Positions 3,498 to 43,710 of a DNA stretch of 64,000 nt are shown here, in pieces. The position numbers were made by a program, and so were the translations under genes. This DNA comes from Amblyornis subalaris (Eukaryota; Chordata; Aves; Passeriformes; Ptilonorhynchidae). The stretch is from the NCBI GenBank assembly GCA_018881555.1, contig JACAXG010000012.1, forward strand, positions 8,288,980 through 8,352,979, written 5' to 3'. The notes below the pieces were generated by a model. It was not told where the DNA came from. It searched no databases and saw only the letters and a list, made by a program, of their open reading frames with translations. Position 1 is the stretch's first letter. Each line of letters opens with the position of its first letter.

Positions 3498-5228
3498 TCA
3501 CACACGGGACAGCGGGACCTGCTTGTGGTAGGAGGCCATGCTGGGCAGCACCGTCCTGCCTGCCAGTGCCGGGCTGGCCTCACCATACACAGAGGCGCCC
3601 GCAGGTTTCCTGGCCCGGCAGCAGCGGGTGGTGAAGCGCCTCCAGGACTCGAGTGTCTTGCCAGACCAGATCCAAACGCCGGAGGTGATCCCCACCACAA
3701 GGCACATGAAATACTTTAGCATGAAGACAGCATAGTCGGGCTTGGGGCGGTGAGGGTCCCCCGGGCAGGAGCAGTTCTGTGTCTGCTCCCAGGCCTCCCG
3801 GTTGTGCTGCTCGTAGATGTAGCAGGCAATGACAATGGTGGCAGGCACAGTGTAAAGCACGGTGAAGATGCCGATGCGGATCATCAGCTTCTCCAGCTTG
3901 TCAGTTTTGGTGCCGCCCTGCTTGATCACGCTGCGGATGCGAAAGAGTGAGACGAAGCCAGCCAGCAGGAAGAGGCTGCCGGTGAAGAGATAAACCACTA
4001 GTGGTGCCAGCACAAAGCCCCGCAGATTCTCCAGGCTCTGGTTGCCCACATAGCAAACCCCAGCCACTGGGTCACCATCCACGGAGCTGAGTGCCAGTAC
4101 AGCAATGGATTTGGCACTGGGGATGAGCCAGGCAGCTAGGTGGAAGTACTGCGAGTAGCTAGCAATAGCCTCATTGCCCCACTTCATGCCAGCAGCCAGG
4201 AACCAGGTGAGGGACAGGATGACCCACCAGATGGAGCTGGCCATGCCAAAGAAGTAGAGGAGAAGGAAAACCACGGTGCAGAGGGCAGGGCCTGTGGTCT
4301 CATAATGGATGTGGTGGTGCTCTGGGTTGCAAGCCACATTGGCATGACCTGCCACCAGGCGCACAATGTAGCCCATGGAGACGAAGAGGTAGCAAGCAGA
4401 GAGGAAGATGATGGGGCGCTCAGGGTACTTGAAGCGCTCCATGTCAATGAGGAAGGTGGCCACGGTGGTGGAGGTGGAGAGGAAGCAGAGGATGGACCAG
4501 AGGCCGATCCAGAAGCTGGCGAAGGTCTTCTCATCCTGGGTAAAGTAGGGCTGGTAGCAGGGGATGGCGCAGTTGAGTACCTTCCCAGTCCTGATGCGGT
4601 TGTACAGCGGATGGGACTCCTTGGAGATGGGGATCAGGGGCGCTTTGCACTTGCAAGTCTGACCACAGTCCAGCCCTGAGGGGCGCTGCCCATCGAGCGG
4701 CGTCAGGTTTTTGGCCACGTCCTTGGCGGGGCGCGTGGGCTTCCCAAAGAAAGGCGGCAGGGTGGTGGCTTCCGTGTGGTTGTATCCCATGCAGAGCACC
4801 TCGGTGTCCCCCAGCACCGGCAGGCTGTCGCAGCTCATCCTCTCGGGCCAGGCAAAGCCGTACTGCTGCATGATGGGCGAGCAGCCGGCCTTGGCCCGCT
4901 CGCAGACGGAGCGGCAGGGGGGCAGCGGCTTGGTGTAGTCCGACAAGCAGATGGGGGTGTACATGCTGCAGAGGAAGAAGCGCAGGTCCGGGGAGCACTG
5001 GATCTCCACCAGAGGCCAGAACTGGTGCACCTCCAGCCCGGCCTCGTCCTGCGTGTCGTGGTTGAACTGGTTGGGCATGTAGGTGAGGTTGTAGCCGATG
5101 CCCTTGCACATCGGCACCGTGATCTCCTGGCACACCAGCGCCTTGGAGGCGGCGCGCCCCGCCGCCGGCAGCCCCAGCAGCAGCGGCAGCCCCAGCAGCA
5201 GCGGCACCGGCAGCCCCCGGCCGCCCAT
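3498..5228 (-). CDS. FZD5: Frizzled-5, Wnt receptor (complete, single coding exon)
   Basis: This is a seven-pass plasma-membrane receptor that binds Wnt ligands and signals through Dishevelled, mainly in the beta-catenin pathway. The 576-residue product is close to the mammalian length (about 585). A leucine-rich signal peptide covers about residues 1-27. The cysteine-rich Wnt-binding domain has all ten cysteines (33, 41, 78, 87, 94, 105, 109, 116, 133, 146) and an N-glycosylation site at Asn47. Seven membrane segments follow, at about 237-257, 271-291, 316-340, 360-380, 404-426, 450-470 and 500-521. The Dishevelled-binding KTxxxW motif is at 524-529, and the tail ends in a class I PDZ ligand, Ser-Arg-Val. 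The tail ending YHKQVPLSRV and the short CRD-TM1 linker fit FZD5; its closest paralogue FZD8 ends differently and has Gly-rich insertions. The ATG at 5226-5228 was chosen because the signal peptide starts there and the context is good (G at -3 and +4). The frame stays open upstream to 5636, but that part is GC-rich leader. Confidence 0.97.
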   Translation of the reverse strand: MGGRGLPVPLLLGLPLLLGLPAAGRAASKALVCQEITVPMCKGIGYNLTYMPNQFNHDTQDEAGLEVHQFWPLVEIQCSPDLRFFLCSMYTPICLSDYTKPLPPCRSVCERAKAGCSPIMQQYGFAWPERMSCDSLPVLGDTEVLCMGYNHTEATTLPPFFGKPTRPAKDVAKNLTPLDGQRPSGLDCGQTCKCKAPLIPISKESHPLYNRIRTGKVLNCAIPCYQPYFTQDEKTFASFWIGLWSILCFLSTSTTVATFLIDMERFKYPERPIIFLSACYLFVSMGYIVRLVAGHANVACNPEHHHIHYETTGPALCTVVFLLLYFFGMASSIWWVILSLTWFLAAGMKWGNEAIASYSQYFHLAAWLIPSAKSIAVLALSSVDGDPVAGVCYVGNQSLENLRGFVLAPLVVYLFTGSLFLLAGFVSLFRIRSVIKQGGTKTDKLEKLMIRIGIFTVLYTVPATIVIACYIYEQHNREAWEQTQNCSCPGDPHRPKPDYAVFMLKYFMCLVVGITSGVWIWSGKTLESWRRFTTRCCRARKPAGASVYGEASPALAGRTVLPSMASYHKQVPLSRV

Positions 5229-6350
5229 CGCCGCCGCGCGTCCTACCGCCGCCGCATGTCCCGGGCACCTGCTGCCGCCGCCGTGCCGGCCCCGCCGGGA
5301 GCGAGAGCGGAATCGGGACAGCCGCCGCCGCCGCCACCACCTGCGCTCTGGGGCGGGCGTGCGCCCCCGCTCCGCGCCGCGCCCGCGCCCCGCCCTGCGC
5401 CCCGCCCCGGGACCGCCCCCGCCGCTGACCCCGCCCCGCCGGGGCTCCCCGGGGCCGCCCCCACCCGGGACGCTGAGTCCCGCGGTGGCGAAACATGGCG
5501 AGGACGCGGCGCTGTCCCGGCCCCGCCACGCCCCGCCTGCTGGAGGCGTCCCGCCGGTCCCCGGGCGCCGGCGCTCGGAGTCCCGCGGCGGCCCGGGGGC
5601 GGGCGGCGAAGTGAGAAGATGGTGCTGCCAAACCACTGACTGCCCCGCATCTGTGCAGGCATCCTAACTCCTTCCCCTCTTGCCCGCCGGGCCCCTCCGC
5701 CCGCCCCAGGACCGGGGCGGCCCGGCTCGGCGCGAAGAGCCAGGCGGGCCGGGGACGGCGGCTGGAGGAGGAGGGCATGTGGTGCCCGCGGTGCTGCTGT
5801 CCCTTCGCCCCTTCCTCCTCGGGCCCTTCAGCCCCTCTTCGCGGGAAGGGACCGGGGCCTCGCCCCGCCCTAANGGGATTTGGACGAACGGGGGGAAACC
5901 CTGGGTAGGGCAAAGGAAGACGTGCAGAGCTGCTGCCCGGATTTGCCTTGCTCCGGCAATGGCACCAGAGCCCGGGTACAAGGGGCTCGGCAACATCTAC
6001 CGCCGCTGCCTCCCGGCGCTGCCCGCTCCCAGCTGCCCGACTCCCGGAGGCAGCGCTCCCGACTGCCGAAAAGCTGAGCCTCGGCGGGAAGGGAAACCGT
6101 CCCCGCCCGGGTGCAGGGAGCTGCGCTACCGCATTCCTGGCCCGGATTCCGTAGCCCTCCACTCTGCCTCGGAGGCGCGGGAGCCGCTTCCCCTGCTTCC
6201 CTCCCAGGCGGGTGGCAGGAGCTGGAGCGCAGCGCGAACGAACGAGACCGTGCCGGGGCAGAGGTCCCTGCCCAGCACNCTGGGGACCGCGGGCTCCTGC
6301 CAGGGCCACCGCCGTGGTCACGCTCAGCTGCCAGGAATTCCAGCCCTCCA
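5229..6350 (-). promoter_or_regulatory. FZD5: CpG island with FZD5 5' UTR and promoter
   Basis: The sequence is extremely GC- and CpG-rich. The island begins inside the coding exon and fades at about 6.35 kb. Several GC boxes (CCCCGCCC-type, Sp1-like) cluster at about 5385-5440, and no TATA box is evident, as is usual for a CpG-island promoter. A short run of CCG repeats lies at about 5322-5337. Transcription of FZD5 on the minus strand probably starts in this interval. The exact start, and whether a 5' UTR intron exists as in some mammalian annotations, cannot be read from the sequence. Long open frames on both strands here result from the scarcity of AT-rich stop codons. Confidence 0.7.
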
Positions 6351-8885: not shown

Positions 8886-9463
8886 TGTTACCAAAACTGA
8901 GGGAAAAACCGAAACTCTGCAACATCATCCTTTAGAGTTCGAGAGTTAAGGCATTACTTTATTCTGGCCAGGGTGTGCAATAGAAATCATTTCATCCACA
9001 CATTGCCCGGGTTGTGCAGGGAAAATCATTCCATCACACTACTCTTTACCTGATGTTTCCCATATTTATACATACAAAACCCAAGAAATTTTAGTTCATT
9101 GGTCTTAAATTACACAATTCTTAGTATTCGGTCTCCTATTGGTTATTGATCCCTTCACCTTCAATGCTAATTTGGTTCTCATTCTTCAGTTCTCTTATCA
9201 GTCTTCGCCAGACCAGGTGTCTCTGACCACGCCAGGGCGGGTAATCCTTGAGGTCGATTTTTGTAGATGTTGGTAAATGTTTGTTAACAATCTCCTATGT
9301 ATCTTCTGGTTACTCCCAAACTATGTGGATGCTAAACTCACCAGGCCTCTCCTGGTGAAACAGAATCCTTTGAAGAGAAACTTCAATTCCCCTCTCTAGG
9401 GCAAAGGTGAACAAACCTGACTAAAGTTACAAAAAAATTTTAAAAGTTGTATTATTTCTAACA
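8886..9463 (-). repeat. 3' LTR of the ERV
   Basis: This 578-bp repeat has TG...CA ends and matches the copy at 12927-13504. On the minus strand two CCAAT-type motifs precede TATAAATA (9063-9070), and AATAAA follows (8958-8963). The distance from the polyadenylation signal to the LTR end leaves about 70 bp of downstream sequence. The polyadenylation signal in this copy would end the proviral transcript. Confidence 0.92.
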
Positions 9464-9481
9464 ATTCCCCCCTTTGGAAGT
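9464..9481 (-). other. Polypurine tract of the ERV
   Basis: On the minus strand the purine run AAAGGGGGGAA lies directly before the 3' LTR. This is the expected place and composition for the plus-strand primer of reverse transcription. Confidence 0.75.
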
Positions 9482-9706
9482 GATCTTAATTTACTTTAAG
9501 GTCACTTCCACCTAACTCATTGACTTAAACAACAGTAATTAAAATTTTTGAAGAAGAAGGAGAAGAACAGAAAAGGTGTAGACAAGCACACATAGAAATT
9601 TTAAGAGGAATGTTAATCCCCTTGGCCATCCTGGGCTTTCCCTCCCCCAGTGGGATTTTTGGTCACTTGTTTCTCAGGAGCTGGGTATGAGAGAATGGAG
9701 TACTGA

Positions 9707-9830
9707 CTGTGCTGTGCCCATGACTGGCACCACTGCAGAGCTGGGATGGAGGCTCTCTGGAGCACTGCCCCTGCTGTGCCTGTGTCTGGCACCACTGCAG
9801 GGCTGGGATGCTGGCTCTAGGGGCTGGGGT
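9707..9830. repeat. Two-copy tandem repeat, period about 62 bp
   Basis: The block containing TGGCACCACTGCAG occurs at 9725-9738 and again at 9787-9800. Flanking similarity (CTGTGC before, GCTGGGATG after) extends over most of the 62-bp period. It lies inside the ERV, near its 3' end in sense orientation. Confidence 0.6.
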
Positions 9831-11486: not shown

Positions 11487-12175
11487 TTTTACAATATGCT
11501 CTGCCTGCTAGATTGATTTTGCAACGTAGCCAATTCCGTTGCAGAATGAGATATCATCAGTATCGGCTTGGCCTTTTGGCATGTAAATTCTGTCTTTGCA
11601 AGCAGGCAGACGTTGGGGTTGAGGGGCAGAGCGAGGGGGCCCAATTCTTCCCATAGGCAAGAAGACCCCGGTACATCGTTCACGCCTCCCTCGGCAGCGT
11701 TAATTTGCATTTCTAAAGCTCCTTCCTGGTTGCTTGGGACCGTGCCTTAGCCACCGGAGAACTCACACGTGGCTCTCCCCAAAGCCGCTTCCCCCCCCCC
11801 CCCTTTTTTTCGAACTGTTTACCAGTTAAAGGGTCACCTTTAAATTTCTCGTTTTGCAAAATGCAACCTAAAGGTGAACTTCGTAAAAAGCCATACCAAA
11901 ATTTTGCAATCACTGACAGCCACGCACACAAAACCCAAAGCAATACTTGATAGCACGCACTAAAACCAAAGACACTCAAATTTACGTTTCAACACTCCTT
12001 CAGCAAACAAGCTTTTATATAACAGGTGTCCCCCTTTTAATTTTTACATGCCGGCAAGACTCACCACACACAACCTAATCTTATACATACACGTACCCAC
12101 ACACTCTTAAGAAACAAACTCACAGTATACCCTGAAACACTTAAACTTGCAATTATTTTCTTTCTTTACCTATAG

Positions 12176-12534
12176 TTGAGACTTGAACTCAAAGCTTCCA
12201 CAAAACAGCACAAGGGACTGAATCCCATTAGATAGCACAGAGATGACTGGAACCCCTCGAGGCAGCAAGTGCCATACTCAATGCAGGACTTAAAACCTGC
12301 TATTCCAAAGGCACAGGGGGGACAGAACCCCACAAGACCACAGCTGCAAACTTCACTGCAGGACTCAAACTTGCTATTTCTGGTTTTCCACAACAAACCA
12401 CGCAAAAGGCACAGGAGGACTTGAACGTCACAAGACTTCAGCTGCAAAACTCACTGCAGGACTCAAACCTGCTATAGACTACTGCGACCCCTTGGGGACT
12501 TAAACCCTACATATGGAGAGGACTCGAACCTCTC
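12176..12534 (-). repeat. Array of about ten tRNA T-arm-like hairpins in the ERV leader
   Basis: Read on the minus strand (the ERV sense), sequences close to the tRNA B-box/T-loop consensus GGTTCRANTCC recur about every 38 bp. Centres are near 12184, 12220, 12249, 12291, 12325, 12366, 12422, 12464, 12501 and 12525. Several form a true T-arm shape, with a five- or six-base-pair stem and a seven-base loop. The best are 12516-12534 (stem GAGAGG/CCTCTC, loop TTCGAGT), 12456-12472 (GCAGG/CCTGC, loop TTTGAGT), 12358-12374, and 12176-12192 (loop TTCAAGT). Others have shorter stems or loops of 5, 6 or 8. A weaker member lies outside, at 12669-12677. The spacing is too short for complete tRNAs. In one frame (12447-12166) the same repeats would encode a recurring Gly/Lys-Phe-x-Ser-type peptide, so a degenerate coding repeat is an alternative. 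I know of no named family with this array. Confidence 0.7.
12236..12477 (-). repeat. Three degenerate tandem units of about 70-100 bp
   Basis: On the plus strand each unit starts GCACAGRGR, continues through a GAACCCC-like core, and ends TGCAGGACTYAAACYTGCTAT. Units begin at about 12235, 12311 and 12409. They differ by indels: the middle unit carries an extra stretch of about 30 bp after GCTAT. Each unit holds two of the T-arm-like hairpins, so part of the hairpin array arose by tandem duplication. Confidence 0.65.
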
Positions 12535-12804
12535 AATTGGCACAGAAAAACTGTTTCTACAACAATAATCTTGTTTTAGCTTCTGCAAGCAAAACCAAAC
12601 TGTTGTGTACACCAAAGACTTTAGAATTTACCATGCAATTGCATTTTATACTTTTAACCAGGTGCCGAGACTTAAACCTGCTTTTGTCACTTATATAACT
12701 TTGCACATGTATTTAATAGAGGATAGTCAATTATACCATCAATATTATATTTCCCCCAAAGTAATGCCTTAAAAAAAACCCAAACACAGGGATTTGGCTT
12801 TGAA

Positions 12805-12904: not shown

Positions 12905-12922
12905 GTCCCTTTGTGGTTGCCA
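12905..12922 (-). other. Degenerate primer-binding site, lysine-tRNA-like
   Basis: Four bases after the 5' LTR, the minus strand reads TGGC..CC..A.AGGGAC. This agrees at 13 of 18 positions with the primer-binding site used for lysine tRNA-3. The position and the leading TGG fit; five mismatches make the tRNA assignment tentative. Confidence 0.4.
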
Positions 12923-31815: not shown

Positions 31816-31993
31816 TCATGTGTTCTGATATGACAATTCAAACATGTTGCAAGACTCTTCAAAGTTCTCGTCCATATTCAGTTGCCTCCAGAAGGATTTC
31901 TGCTTCTTCTGCAATTCTTTACGCACACACCTGGGGCATGGTACAGCCTTCACTTTGCACTCAGAGTGGAAGACAGCACCACAGCTTTCACAC
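31816..31993 (-). CDS. PLEKHM3: PLEKHM3, last coding exon
   Basis: PLEKHM3 is a PH-domain protein with a C-terminal Rubicon-type zinc domain, reported as a scaffold linked to AKT signalling and muscle-cell differentiation. This exon encodes its final 58 residues, starting CESCGAVF and ending FELSYQNT before a TGA at 31816-31818. It supplies zinc ligands CxxC (CESC), HxxxC (HSEC) and CxxC (CPRC), then a basic, Lys/Gln-rich segment. The acceptor on the minus strand is TTTGTGTTTGCAG|GTGTG. The first G completes an Arg codon begun by the previous exon, so the reading frame joins exactly. The sequence closely matches the mammalian C terminus as I remember it. Confidence 0.95.
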
Positions 31994-34900
31994 CTGCAAA
32001 CACAAATTAGTGTCAAAATTGAATCACAAAATAGGACCAGAGCATGCAACGGGCTTGACGTGGACTGTGGGCAGTAGGTATTCCTTGACACCATTCTGGG
32101 AGCTCAAAGAGCATTATGTTTCAAAAGAGTGGCATTGTAAAAGACACTGGCATGCCCACACCTCTGCTGGTGTAAAGCTGCTCAAGACCACCAAAATAAG
32201 TTGACTTGCATCCATTTTGCAGAAGAATCTGCCCCAGCACTTCTGCTCCACAGAAATTTTTAGAAGGATTAATATTTATCTTCTTAGTAACAAGTATTCG
32301 GGTCTATCACAGAATAAATATTACCTTTGTTTTATGAAAGACAAGCTTGTTGTTTTGGTTTGTAAATGAAGAGTAACAATATTGTTTTCCAATAAGATAT
32401 ATTTCAGCATTTCCAGAAACAGATTCTGTGATTTGCAACAGCCATAATACGACATTTTCCTCATTGAAGCTCCAGTGGTCAGCTGTTCTGGCAACAGTAC
32501 AGAACAGTCCACTTCAAGAGCAGGAGACGTTGTCATTTCACAAAGTAAAAAATGAAACAGAGGGAGGTGATATTGTCTGCTCTGGGTCCTGTGGAGGATT
32601 GGGCTAGATCAACACAATAACAGCTTCTGGCATTCAAAGCTGTGTTTTTCTGTTCTCAAATGTGACATTAAGAACTTCAAACAAATCAACTGCTCAAACA
32701 AGATGACTGGTTTACTTTTGGGGCACTGTGAGGCAATGGACTTGATGTCACAGCAGATCAAGCCCCAGTTCTAGACAGCTGTAGAGCAATGAAACATCTG
32801 GTGATCATGAGGGGGCTACAACTAAACAGCTGGACATTCTCAGCCTTTCAATGCAAATGACTATCTCTAGTGACGAGTTAAGTTGCTATAGCTTTGTAAC
32901 CAAAGGAAAAAGTAAAAGGATGACTGTCAGAGGTAAAAAGTCTTATATTTCAGTTGGATAATCAAATAATAAAAGCAACAAAACATCAAACTTTAGAGCA
33001 ATCTTGAAACACAAATGAGGGGTGCTGGTCACCCTGGTGATTCTGTGGAACATCTTGAAATGCCTTGCACTTTTTTCCTTTCTCATAGCTATTGTAGTCA
33101 AATGACTATATGAGAGTCCAAGTGTCCATCGTTACAACTTTAGTGGGGGTTTTTGTTGGTTTGCTTTGAATTTCTTTTCATAGAAATAAGGTTCTTATCT
33201 TCAAGACTGTAAAGAAAAATTGAAAACATGAAGAAAGAAACCCCAAAAAGTGAGAAGCCATAAGGCAAACCACAGTATTTGGCATGTGGTCTGACAATAC
33301 TGAGAGAAGCCCATAAGCTACCAGAACCTGTTAGCTATATTGGCTGCATCTCACCTGTAACTTTAAAAAAACTGTTCCTCGTCTCACTGCACTTGAAGTT
33401 TTATGCATGGGTCCAAACATGGCTTAAATTTTAGTAACTGCAGAGTTTTGAGAAGGTTTTACAGAGATTTAAAGAGGCACATTTGTAGCTAGCATAAACT
33501 CATAAAACTCAAGTATTACTTAAGTAAGAAAAGAAAGGTGAAAGAGGCTAAGTATAAAGCAGTATATCTACTAGCTTCCATGCTCTCTTGCAGTAAAATT
33601 TGACTTTTATTTCTGAGTCCAGCTATGGAGTCTAAATCTGGTTTTGAACCAAGAAACCGGCTCACACAGAGATATTTACAGTTTCTGTGCTCAGAGTGTG
33701 TGTTATTGCCCTGATCCACTGAAGCACATAAACACATGCTTAGGATTTATATCCCAGTGACTTCGTTGGGATTACTGATCTGCCTCCCATTAAATGTGGT
33801 TACTGTGCTTTGCTGGGTTGGGATCTCCACAAACAGACACACTAACGTTTGTTAAAGAATAGACACAAGACAGCAGTGTCTTTAAAACTTTACACCACTC
33901 TCAAATGACACTAATGGTGATTTTATCAAGCTAATTCTCCCTTGTTAGTCAGCAATTTACACTGCCCTGGAAGTTGCTAGAGGGTAATGATTGATGAGCA
34001 GTGTAATTTTGTGCTCTCACGTCGCCACTCCCTATGCTAGCCCAATATTTCTCTACCGCACACATGGAAATGACAAAACCTATCAGAAATTGCTACTGAA
34101 ATGCATTGAGCAGGATGAGAGAGGAGCCAGCACACCTGCTCTCTCAAGTCAAAGGCCATCAGCAGAGCAAAGACTGATGGTGTTTAAATTAATATGAACT
34201 CATTTTTCAGAAACAAGCTCAGTGGAAAAGATTAACAAACTCCTTTCCCATCACTCAGAATCAAAACAGAGAGAAAAACTGTGCTGTTATTCATTAGAGC
34301 TGGTGCAGTAGCTGAAGCTCTGCCTAGGACCCCAAGNCATCAGGCACTAAGCAGAGGCAGAGCAAACAGCCATCTCCGATCTCACAGTCACTGCACTGGC
34401 ACCCACTGCTGCCATCCTCGATCCACTCTAGTGCCCCCACCCCTGACTGCCACTCTGACGACCTATTTTCTGCTTTCTCTGGTGAAGGTTGGCATACTCC
34501 CAGCCCCAACCAAGGGGTGCAGATAACAACAAAGCAGCAGCCTGTAGGAAGAGTGCTCTGAGTTGGAGAACGAAGCTGCCTCTAGCTCTCCACAGGAATA
34601 AGTAGAGAGGATACCTGTATCAGTCTTCCCTGCATGCTTGTATCCCCCTCACTGACAAAGACAGTCAGTCGCCAGGGTAGAGGGGCAATGCTGCTCTTGC
34701 CCTGCCTTTGTGCAAATGGCAAGTTACTCCCTTTAAAGCTATACTATAAAGTAGAGCTATACTACCCCAAGCCACCTACAGCTTTGCTTTTCATCNTATC
34801 AAATACAGTCAGTTTTAACTGCCCCTGGAATGTCAACTGGTTGACCATTTCTAATCTCACTGCAAGAAATTCTCCAGTGAAACCAAAAACTCCACCAAAG

Positions 34901-41340: not shown

Positions 41341-43710
41341 GTATTCAAACCCTGAGGAGTGCATAACCCAGGTATTCACTCTGTTTGCCCAAGGACTGAC
41401 AAAAATGACTCTCAAGCAAATAACCAGACCAAAGAGAAACTCCAGCCCTCAAGAGGGGCCCTCTTTTTCTCTCAGCTGTACCTATCTAAAGACCACCCAT
41501 CCTTCATAAATTCCTGCTGAAGACTGCACAGAAACTGCTGAGAATATTTTGGAGAGAAATAATCTCTTCACCTCAAAGCTGACCTAAGAGACCATGAGGA
41601 TGGAAAGTTAACAGCCAACTGAGAACCACCTTGGAATTGTAACGGCCACTCTGACAGCTGTCACTCTTCTCTCCAAAGAGCAAGAAAGGTCAGGGAGGTA
41701 GCCAAAAAAAACAAATGACAGCTCAACCCACACACANGAGCAGGCTTCACTTTTCAAACATGCAATAAAGAGCTGAAGTCTACAGAAGCTGTCATGCACC
41801 CACTTTTGAATATTTCTAACCTAAAAACCCAGTTTGCTGGTAGAGTTAATAGCATGCTCTAAAGCGAATGAACATCATTCAAANGCAAAAAGAAAAATGT
41901 GGTCTTGAGAGTTCAGCAGCTCTTCCCTCCTTAACTCAGCAGCTTCAGCCAGGGTAGTATTGGCAGTCTAGTATTGTGTACAAAATATGAACACTATGCT
42001 GTAGACAGCAATTCCAGAAAACCAGGATGGAGAAAAAGGAGTTGTAGCCAATTCTCACTGTACACTGTGGACTCAGAATAGTACAACTTAATCACAAATC
42101 TAAGCTGTTTACTCAGAGCTCTGTATGACACTTAATTGACAAGGAAAGCTGAACACATCATCAGAATTTTCAGGTATAATTGCAAGTCTTCACATGAAGC
42201 TTGTAGGACTTGCCATTCCATTTGCCACAGGTTACATCTACCAATTTGTAACTAGCCTCCTCACCTTACACATGTCTTCGTAGTGGTCAGCAGACCTACC
42301 TCAGAAACCTCTCATCTTCAAGAGATGGAAAAAACACAAAACCACTCCATCTGGCCTTCTCCCTCAATACTTTGGAGCTGATGGAGCTGCACAGTAAAAC
42401 CTACAAGCTCCTTTGTTGGCGTAACTTGCCTCCAGAGCAAAAATAAGGAACTGAAATAATCTGGTTAGTTCCACATAGGTGTATGTGTAGTAATGAGATG
42501 AGAAAACTAACTAAGAAGGGAAATGGTAAATGCTGGGTATAAAAACAAGGCTTAGTGATAAGGAATACAAAAGGAATAAGCAGAANGACCTTCGACAAAA
42601 TAAGAAAGGGAAATATCGGAGAACCTTTCATGCTGATTGTGTTTTAATTAAAATCATTAAAAAAGACCGCTGTCTTTGGCATGACATCAACCACAACTTC
42701 ACATTTGTGAAACATGAACAAAAGTCCTTTCTGGCTTCTAATTCGCATAAAAACACGAGCTAGAGCAGCTTCTGTTGGCTTGAACTGCTGACAAATTCTA
42801 TCTGATTCCAGANGGTTTTAAACTCTGTAATTGCAAGGTATGTCTGACCTCAGCTGAAGGGCAGGGAAATAATATACACCCAACAATGTTTTTGTGATCA
42901 AAAATCCCCCAGACAAATCAGATTTTAAAGTAAACCCATCTTCTGAAACGTACTTACACGTTCTCAACAATCTTTCGGGAATATCTTCAATTGCCTTCTA
43001 TGCAGTCTCAACAGACATCTTATGTTTTCTGCCATCATTAAGTCTTTCTTTTTAACTCAGCCTATCTCACCATGCACCCTAGATACATTGGTTCTTAAAA
43101 ATTGTTTATAGAGCTCAGCTGCACACTTTCTTTAGCTTTTATCCACTGCTTTGTCAATACACTTTTTAGACTAAGACTCTGGAAAAACAATGTGCAAACA
43201 GTCTTTGAAACTCAGATCAGACTGAAAATCCCTTAAGAGTAGTCCTTGGTTACTGGTCATTTAACATCTTTGTGCATGCAAGGGAATCAGATTCTTAACA
43301 AACCATTTTAACAGGCTGGTCCTGATTGTTTCCAAAGGTGGCTCCTCGATTTTTTCCTCCCTTTCAAATGAACACTTTGGAGAACAAATTACAATGACTG
43401 TATTTGAAACAGCCAAAAAAATACTTATCTATGGAGGAATGCTGTGCTGTTAGATATACTGTCTTTCTGTTTAGAGTGGAAAAAAATTTATCTCCTTTAT
43501 TCAAAATCCAAGACACTATTGAAAAAGAGTAGTACCCACTGCTGTGTTGCCAAGTCTGCTTTGGTTTCCTGCNTTTTGCTTCTAGGTTTTCCACGTGACT
43601 CCTGTCCCTGACCTGGCATCCAGCACTTTACATGATGTGAAATAAAGTTTTGTTTAGTTTAGGACTGGCATACACTTATACTTCCTTTGTAGCCACCTGA
43701 AAAATAGCAA

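Follow-up and report, generated by a model that had tools for sequence, protein, structure and literature searches.

The window, as we call the whole 64,000-nucleotide stretch of Amblyornis subalaris DNA that was analysed, is part of a 1.08-Gb genome and carries an LTR element on its minus strand. Two other pieces of the window stand out: a long open frame at 3498-5636 (minus strand), which we take to be a Frizzled receptor, probably FZD2, and an open piece at 31819-32103 (minus strand) that presumably represents the C-terminal zinc region of PLEKHM1. The element comprises the following features:

8886 to 9463, minus strand: 3' LTR of 578 bp, with TATAAA and AATAAA in the minus sense
9464 to 9477, minus strand: polypurine tract, which adjoins the 3' LTR and sets the orientation of the element
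11806 to 11892, minus strand: broken piece similar to the beginning of Gag matrix (SSPLGCIL...GDPLT), from sequence comparison with locus L100
12176 to 12533, minus strand: array of T-arm-like hairpins
12905 to 12922, minus strand: PBS-like stretch TGGCAACCACAAAGGGAC, a few nucleotides past the 5' LTR, with a similar stretch in copies L089 and L090
12927 to 13504, minus strand: 5' LTR of 578 bp, 98.1% identical to 8886-9463

Because the 11806-11892 piece is similar to the beginning of a Gag matrix frame (15 of 30 residues identical to the Gag_MA-matching frame of L100), the element looks, by its sequence, like a broken gammaretrovirus-like endogenous retrovirus (ERV), with the array flanked by the PBS-like site on one side and the gag remnant on the other. 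This remnant has no Pfam match in its own right, and ten internal pieces of the element returned no Pfam family, save one weak irrelevant match. Near the 3' end of the element is a 62-bp tandem duplication (9696-9818). Of 577 sites that can be compared between the two LTRs, 10 differ, which, at an avian substitution rate that we assume to apply, suggests insertion a few million years ago. Other full-length or near full-length LTR rows in the genome are 78-91% identical; this search scored 40 out of 144 first-look candidates and yielded at least 42 rows, including the window's own two and a few pieces, some rows being pieces of one place. The leader is absent from the 1 kb downstream of each of 36 other LTR copies (longest match 16 nt), so these are solo or 3' LTRs that serve only as a negative control and cannot test the array; their flanks hold one isolated T-arm-like match in the sense orientation and none in antisense. 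The PBS-like stretch looks tRNA-Arg-like, a tentative identity. The tRNA-Arg 3' end assumed for it has no exact match in the genome and, with two mismatches allowed, 17 scattered matches against 77 for the reversed control; no tRNA gene matching the PBS came out of this search of the genome.

About ten T-arm-like hairpins, confirmed and well supported, occupy minus-strand positions 12176-12533 in the leader of the element. The unit consists of a 5-bp stem with a G-C closing pair and a 7-nt loop of the form TTNNAGT. Between 12100 and 12720, TTNNAGTC loops occur nine times on the minus strand and never on the plus strand, and two further variants have a displaced loop (12316-12332 and 12212-12228). 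The proposal of the initial annotation that a real array lies in a retroviral leader, in the sense of the ERV, is upheld. The units, with E values from the T-arm covariance model described below, are:

12517 to 12533, minus strand: T-arm hairpin AGAGG TTCGAGT CCTCT, E 0.0009
12493 to 12509, minus strand: T-arm hairpin TAGGG TTTAAGT CCCCA, 4/5 pairs, E 2
12456 to 12472, minus strand: T-arm hairpin GCAGG TTTGAGT CCTGC, E 0.0038
12414 to 12430, minus strand: weak unit TGACG TTCAAGT CCTCC, 3/5 pairs
12358 to 12374, minus strand: T-arm hairpin GCAAG TTTGAGT CCTGC, 4/5 pairs, E 1.6
12316 to 12332, minus strand: variant unit TGGGG TTCTGTC CCCCC
12283 to 12300, minus strand: T-arm-like hairpin GCAGG TTTTAAGT CCTGC, perfect stem and 8-nt loop, E 1.8
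12241 to 12257, minus strand: weak unit AGGGG TTCCAGT CATCT, which pairs better in copies L087 and L090
12212 to 12228, minus strand: variant unit with loop ATTCAGT
12176 to 12192, minus strand: T-arm hairpin TTGAG TTCAAGT CTCAA, E 0.019

Five of the nine TTNNAGTC units pair at four or more of their five stem positions, and a perfect 5-bp stem with a 7-nt loop is present at 12517-12533, 12456-12472 and 12176-12192. The nine units are separated by 148, 24, 37, 42, 56, 75, 42 and 65 nt, and the spacing of about 38 bp noted earlier does not hold: intervals range from 24 to 148 nt and have no steady period. Under strict T-arm criteria drawn from tRNA knowledge (five pairs, at least five of six loop positions and a G-C closing pair), both strands of the 64 kb contain three matches only, all of them in the array. 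None of 5000 dinucleotide shuffles of the region attained the observed count at any of four criteria settings, and in none of 200 shuffles of the whole window was the largest cluster as large as the observed one, in agreement with the earlier judgement that chance is unlikely.

The T-arm geometry claimed for the units also stood up to a covariance model for which 37 T-arms of phage tRNAs were used (38 were extracted and one, mis-registered, was dropped). Run on the 64 kb, this model ranks array units first, second and fourth (E 0.0009, 0.0038 and 0.019), and four more array units appear at E 1.6 to 8.2, among chance matches. The third rank (E 0.0062) belongs to an isolated T-arm-like hairpin outside the element, at 43397-43413 on the minus strand. 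At TTNNAGTC sites elsewhere in the window, a stem of at least four pairs is found in 2 of 38 cases. A model of anticodon arms (33 of 38 arms) produced no cluster in the array and a single unit at E 4.8, and we rejected anticodon arms as a reading. When arms were swapped among six window units of fixed register, the observed pairing was reached in 4 of 720 arrangements (the true one among them), and other choices of units and pairs gave p values of 0.0012 to 0.016; in one pairing analysis the loops of units 7, 8 and 10 had been delimited to suit the stem, and the swap test omits these. Over its full length the array region shows no better folding than its shuffles (z +0.61), and the signal is therefore one of local hairpins.

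Complete tRNAs, already doubted in the initial annotation, are indeed lacking: ARAGORN reads none in the window and Rfam has no match in 12100-12720, whereas the positive control, phage locus L012, gave 15 tRNA genes, and a tRNA gene cluster was rejected accordingly. L012 was found by the same hairpin scanner and, among 77 IMG/VR loci drawn from short patterns (tRNAs were sought in 40 of them), is the only one with more than one T-arm match per 600 nt per strand. No relatives of the array were found in IMG/VR, GTDB contigs, phages, plasmids or a protein database. A degenerate coding repeat, also suggested initially, was discarded: no frame of the window core is open throughout, each being interrupted by stops, and the loops fall in all three phases. 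A 94-codon open stretch (12169-12450) overlaps part of the array and has no Pfam or protein match; copies L089 and L092 each have a stop-free frame through the array core, but their loops do not share a phase.

Searching the genome with the leader returned 17 matches at nine loci, namely the window and eight further copies (L087 to L094), and these other copies do carry the array: next to nine units in the window they hold 1, 3, 6, 6, 1, 5, 5 and 5 in the ERV sense, for a total of 41 sense units and no antisense unit. Number and order of units vary strongly from copy to copy. One array, that of L093 (G000:C336), is split, with 896 nt of apparently unrelated insert between two loops. Across the 41 units, standard pairs fill 90.2% of cells, and cells with a double change number 58, as against 19.8±5.2 after shuffling (reached by 0 of 500 shuffles), a signal that is lost when the register is shifted; the stems thus covary between units, a point that the initial annotation had singled out for checking. 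From pair 6 onward, pairing is at the level of swapped arms, which leaves pairs 6-8 unsupported and ends the stem at pair 5. The same geometry emerges when loop sequence is ignored: among perfect 5-bp stems with loops of 3-15 nt, the largest excess falls at 7 nt (24 hairpins, 17 of them distinct, vs 3.2±1.9 expected), with smaller excesses at 8 nt (9 vs 3.3) and 9 nt (12 vs 3.2) and a slight one at 4 nt (7 vs 3.2). Likewise, 36 distinct sense hairpins chosen without regard to the loop (stem at least 4.5 of 5, background hairpins included) yield the loop consensus T T N N A G T, with U54, U55 and A58 present in 26, 23 and 24 of the 36. Local folding exceeds a probability of 0.5 in 20 of 42 units and hardly separates the strands (mean 0.45 in sense, 0.41 in antisense).

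Units that could be matched between copies by their flanks diverge by 0.112 per site in stems and 0.137 in flanks. Their 53 changed pairs, a count in which a single mutation may enter several times and which includes a neighbouring site at 12134 that is not a T-arm, divide into 39 one-sided changes with at least one unpaired state, 11 changes to or from G-U, 2 compensatory changes and 1 double change without pairing; L092:843 against L094:1236 is the cleaner compensatory case. Because every genomic copy has decayed since its insertion, this pattern is compatible with selection in the living virus as well as with its absence. The pairs themselves indicate the molecule: at pairs 2-5 of distinct units, G-U pairs in the sense orientation outnumber A-C mismatches 34 to 14 (p 0.0055, a generous value given that the units are related), which favours selection on sense RNA rather than on DNA or antisense RNA.

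Arrays of this kind are not confined to copies of the window's leader. A spaced three-loop pattern, in which some loop positions and the two innermost stem pairs are specified so that pairing is tested freely only at pairs 3-5, retrieved 40 rows genome-wide, as against 17 for the reversed control. Of these, 29 lie in window-type copies or in sixteen further places, which were fetched with about 1 kb per side, and 11 were judged from the match sequence to be non-arrays: nine in an interspersed repeat, plus C266:34513 and C610. Two of the non-array rows were fetched (L115 and L116) and show a stem in none of seven loops. The interspersed repeat, AGTCC..TTAAG..GTGGTTGCAGTCCTG, fits the loop pattern and occurs in contigs C91, C157, C204, C276, C288, C302, C623, C640 and C651 of G000; L115, one copy of it, has a stem at none of its four loops.

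The sixteen places form five groups by their units, as assigned by eye, and their stems are partly unlike those of the window (AAGGG/CCCTT, GTGGG/CCCAC, TGGGG/CCCCA and GGGGG/CCCCC). BLAST clustering at a total length of at least 200 merges nearly all loci into one set; the groups hence share other sequence and are not to be taken as unrelated viruses. Loop matches number 80 in sense and 9 in antisense. Swapping the arms of the 55 distinct arm pairs, some of which lack any stem, gave a mean of 143.4 of 275 against the observed 190.0, which none of 20000 shuffles passed. Pair 4 is clearest, being Watson-Crick in 37 of 55 (14.3 by swapping), followed by pair 5 (26 vs 14.4); pair 3 reaches only 28 vs 25.4. 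Perfect 5-bp stems are in excess here at several loop lengths (7 nt, 38 vs 5.8; 9 nt, 32 vs 5.7; 6 nt, 23 vs 6.2; 10 nt, 23 vs 6.1), and these sequences are therefore hairpin-rich in general. One group consists of near-regular units of 24-26 bp. The position upstream of a gag-like frame is seen among the sixteen places in L100 and L102: frames that match Gag_MA (at 21.2 and 29.6 bits, E 0.00027 and 7e-07; the Pfam cut-off is 30) start 68 and 43 nt, respectively, downstream of the first base of the final unit's loop. Their fellow group member L107 is preceded, at a distance of about 0.75 kb and in the same orientation, by the 3' portion of a window-type LTR (84%), and the window-type copies L092 and L094 combine units of the window kind and of the further places in one array. 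That similar rows with different stems recur at other sites of the genome points to a common functional part, perhaps one in viral RNA packaging.

Could such rows have no function and derive from a leader repeat that is prone to form hairpins and was spread when reverse transcription switched templates? The strong differences in unit number and order between copies are what a passive minisatellite would leave, as are matched-unit stems that diverge nearly like their flanks, the near-regular units of one group and the excess of other loop lengths in the sixteen places. Nevertheless, the same 5-bp/7-nt geometry and loop recur across different stems, sense G-U pairs exceed A-C mismatches and strand bias is strict in window-type copies, and on balance we regard a functionless repeat as rather unlikely.

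A role at the level of DNA, as an array of TFIIIC/Pol III B-boxes, fares far worse. Three exact B-box matches had been reported; one of them stands (GGTTCRANNCC at 12520-12530), and the other two have T at tRNA position 56. This strict motif occurs once in the array and once elsewhere in the window, and several near matches accompany it. However, C56, which is needed both for D-loop docking and by the B-box, is kept in only 16 of 42 units and in 6 of the 55 distinct sites of the sixteen places, and both the covariation of the outer stem pairs and the excess of sense G-U over A-C speak against a DNA element. We rejected the B-box array as a candidate, and the binding of Pol III factors, one of the roles first considered, is very improbable.

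Some of the arrays are accompanied by a second type of hairpin. GACG-tetraloop hairpins with the stem GGTGGT/ACCACC or longer adjoin T-arm units in 6 of 25 array loci scanned (L092, L094, L101, L103, L109 and L113) and in L161, which was found later; L087 has a GACG hairpin of different sequence, and the scan of the 25 loci found none in the window's own leader. The exact 16-mer GGTGGTGACGACCACC occurs nine times in the genome (reversed control, 6), always beside T-arm units: eight copies are in known array loci and one is in L161, with a single unit directly after it. These nine loci are related to one another and do not count as independent events. UCUG, the NC site of MLV, shows no clear enrichment (19 vs 13.7 expected, with seven copies counted). 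Two papers describe GACG tetraloops as contributing to the dimerisation and packaging region of gammaretroviral RNA, and packaging of spleen necrosis virus as involving two hairpins (PMC5874298; PMC5086612). Like the packaging regions of gammaretroviruses (SL-C and SL-D of MLV, and those of RD-114 and spleen necrosis virus), the array lies upstream of gag and is made up of several small hairpins. It differs from them in that its repeated unit is a T-loop-like hairpin of 5 bp and 7 nt, and in that unit number and order vary. GACG hairpins of one sequence type are present in some array loci, and the window copy has none.

Of the roles initially put forward, RNA packaging is the best supported, by the position upstream of gag and the GACG hairpins in some copies. 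We tentatively read the array as a cis-acting RNA hairpin element, most likely in the Psi region of the leaders of gammaretrovirus-like bird ERVs, a reading that we hold at somewhat less than even confidence. The row would be situated in the packaging and dimerisation (Psi) region, between PBS and gag, and would consist of autonomous hairpins whose 5-bp stem, G-C closing pair and 7-nt loop TTNRAGT could adopt a T-loop fold; multiple small hairpins might then serve as a multivalent platform to which Gag or a partner genome binds or docks. The T-loop fold, the binding partner and the packaging function are all putative. Because U54, U55, A58, the G-C closing pair and the 5-bp stem are kept and C56 is not, we favour a free-standing T-loop hairpin as the repeated RNA module of the packaging region. 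The units share with the tRNA T-arm a 5-bp stem, a 7-nt loop, G53-C61, U54, U55, A58 and mostly R57; unlike it, they lack a kept C56, a D-arm, an anticodon arm and an acceptor stem, and their G59-U60 is nearly constant, in part since units were picked by that motif.

That the array is a cluster of sites for the T-loop modifying enzymes TRUB1 and TRMT6/61A seems to us highly improbable: the motifs of these enzymes, GUUCNANNC and GUUCRA, require C56, which is absent from most units, and m1A blocks reverse transcription. Pointing towards such sites are GTTCRA in some units and the presence, according to PMC11549392, of mammalian mRNA m1A in tRNA T-loop-like sequences.

The boldest version of the packaging-module reading is mimicry of the tRNA elbow, in which the T-loops would imitate or bind the elbow and so recruit to the leader, for example, Gag matrix or the primer tRNA. 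It would fit the choice of the array by the T-arm model and not by the anticodon-arm model, and the retention of U54, U55, A58 and mostly R57, rather than C56, would suit a T-loop without a D-loop partner. There are precedents in the literature: in three classes of RNA the tRNA elbow is bound by T-loops that interdigitate (PMC4810234), and PMC8473020 and PMC11181671 have HIV-1 matrix binding the elbow and a tRNA-like element of the HIV-1 leader, in the PBS segment, mimicking the anticodon arm of the primer. The array is akin to that HIV-1 element as a retroviral leader RNA imitating part of a tRNA but resembles the T-arm and is repeated. More than one T-loop stands close together here, as in T-box stem I, RNase P and the L1 stalk, whose T-loops interdigitate; the array shows no sign of such a paired T-loop architecture. 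Against mimicry are the absence of a D-arm or acceptor partner, the empty Rfam and ARAGORN results and the failure to find the primer tRNA in the genome, and elbow binding is putative. We think it unlikely that the array is a multivalent mimic or binder of the tRNA elbow, coupling primer tRNA or Gag matrix to packaging and dimerisation; if it were, the device would be present in several groups of gammaretrovirus-like bird ERVs and, within the open-licence literature searched, undescribed for any retrovirus. In the titles and abstract openings of that literature, no array of T-arm-like hairpins in a retroviral leader is described, which is weak evidence of novelty because the papers covered were openly licensed ones.

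If the arrays do act in packaging, one small tRNA-like fold would have been reused across retroviral leaders with the sequence of its stem left free. This would be a clear case of structural, not sequence, conservation in a retroviral leader, and it would provide a testable link between the recognition of tRNA by Gag and the selection of the viral genome.
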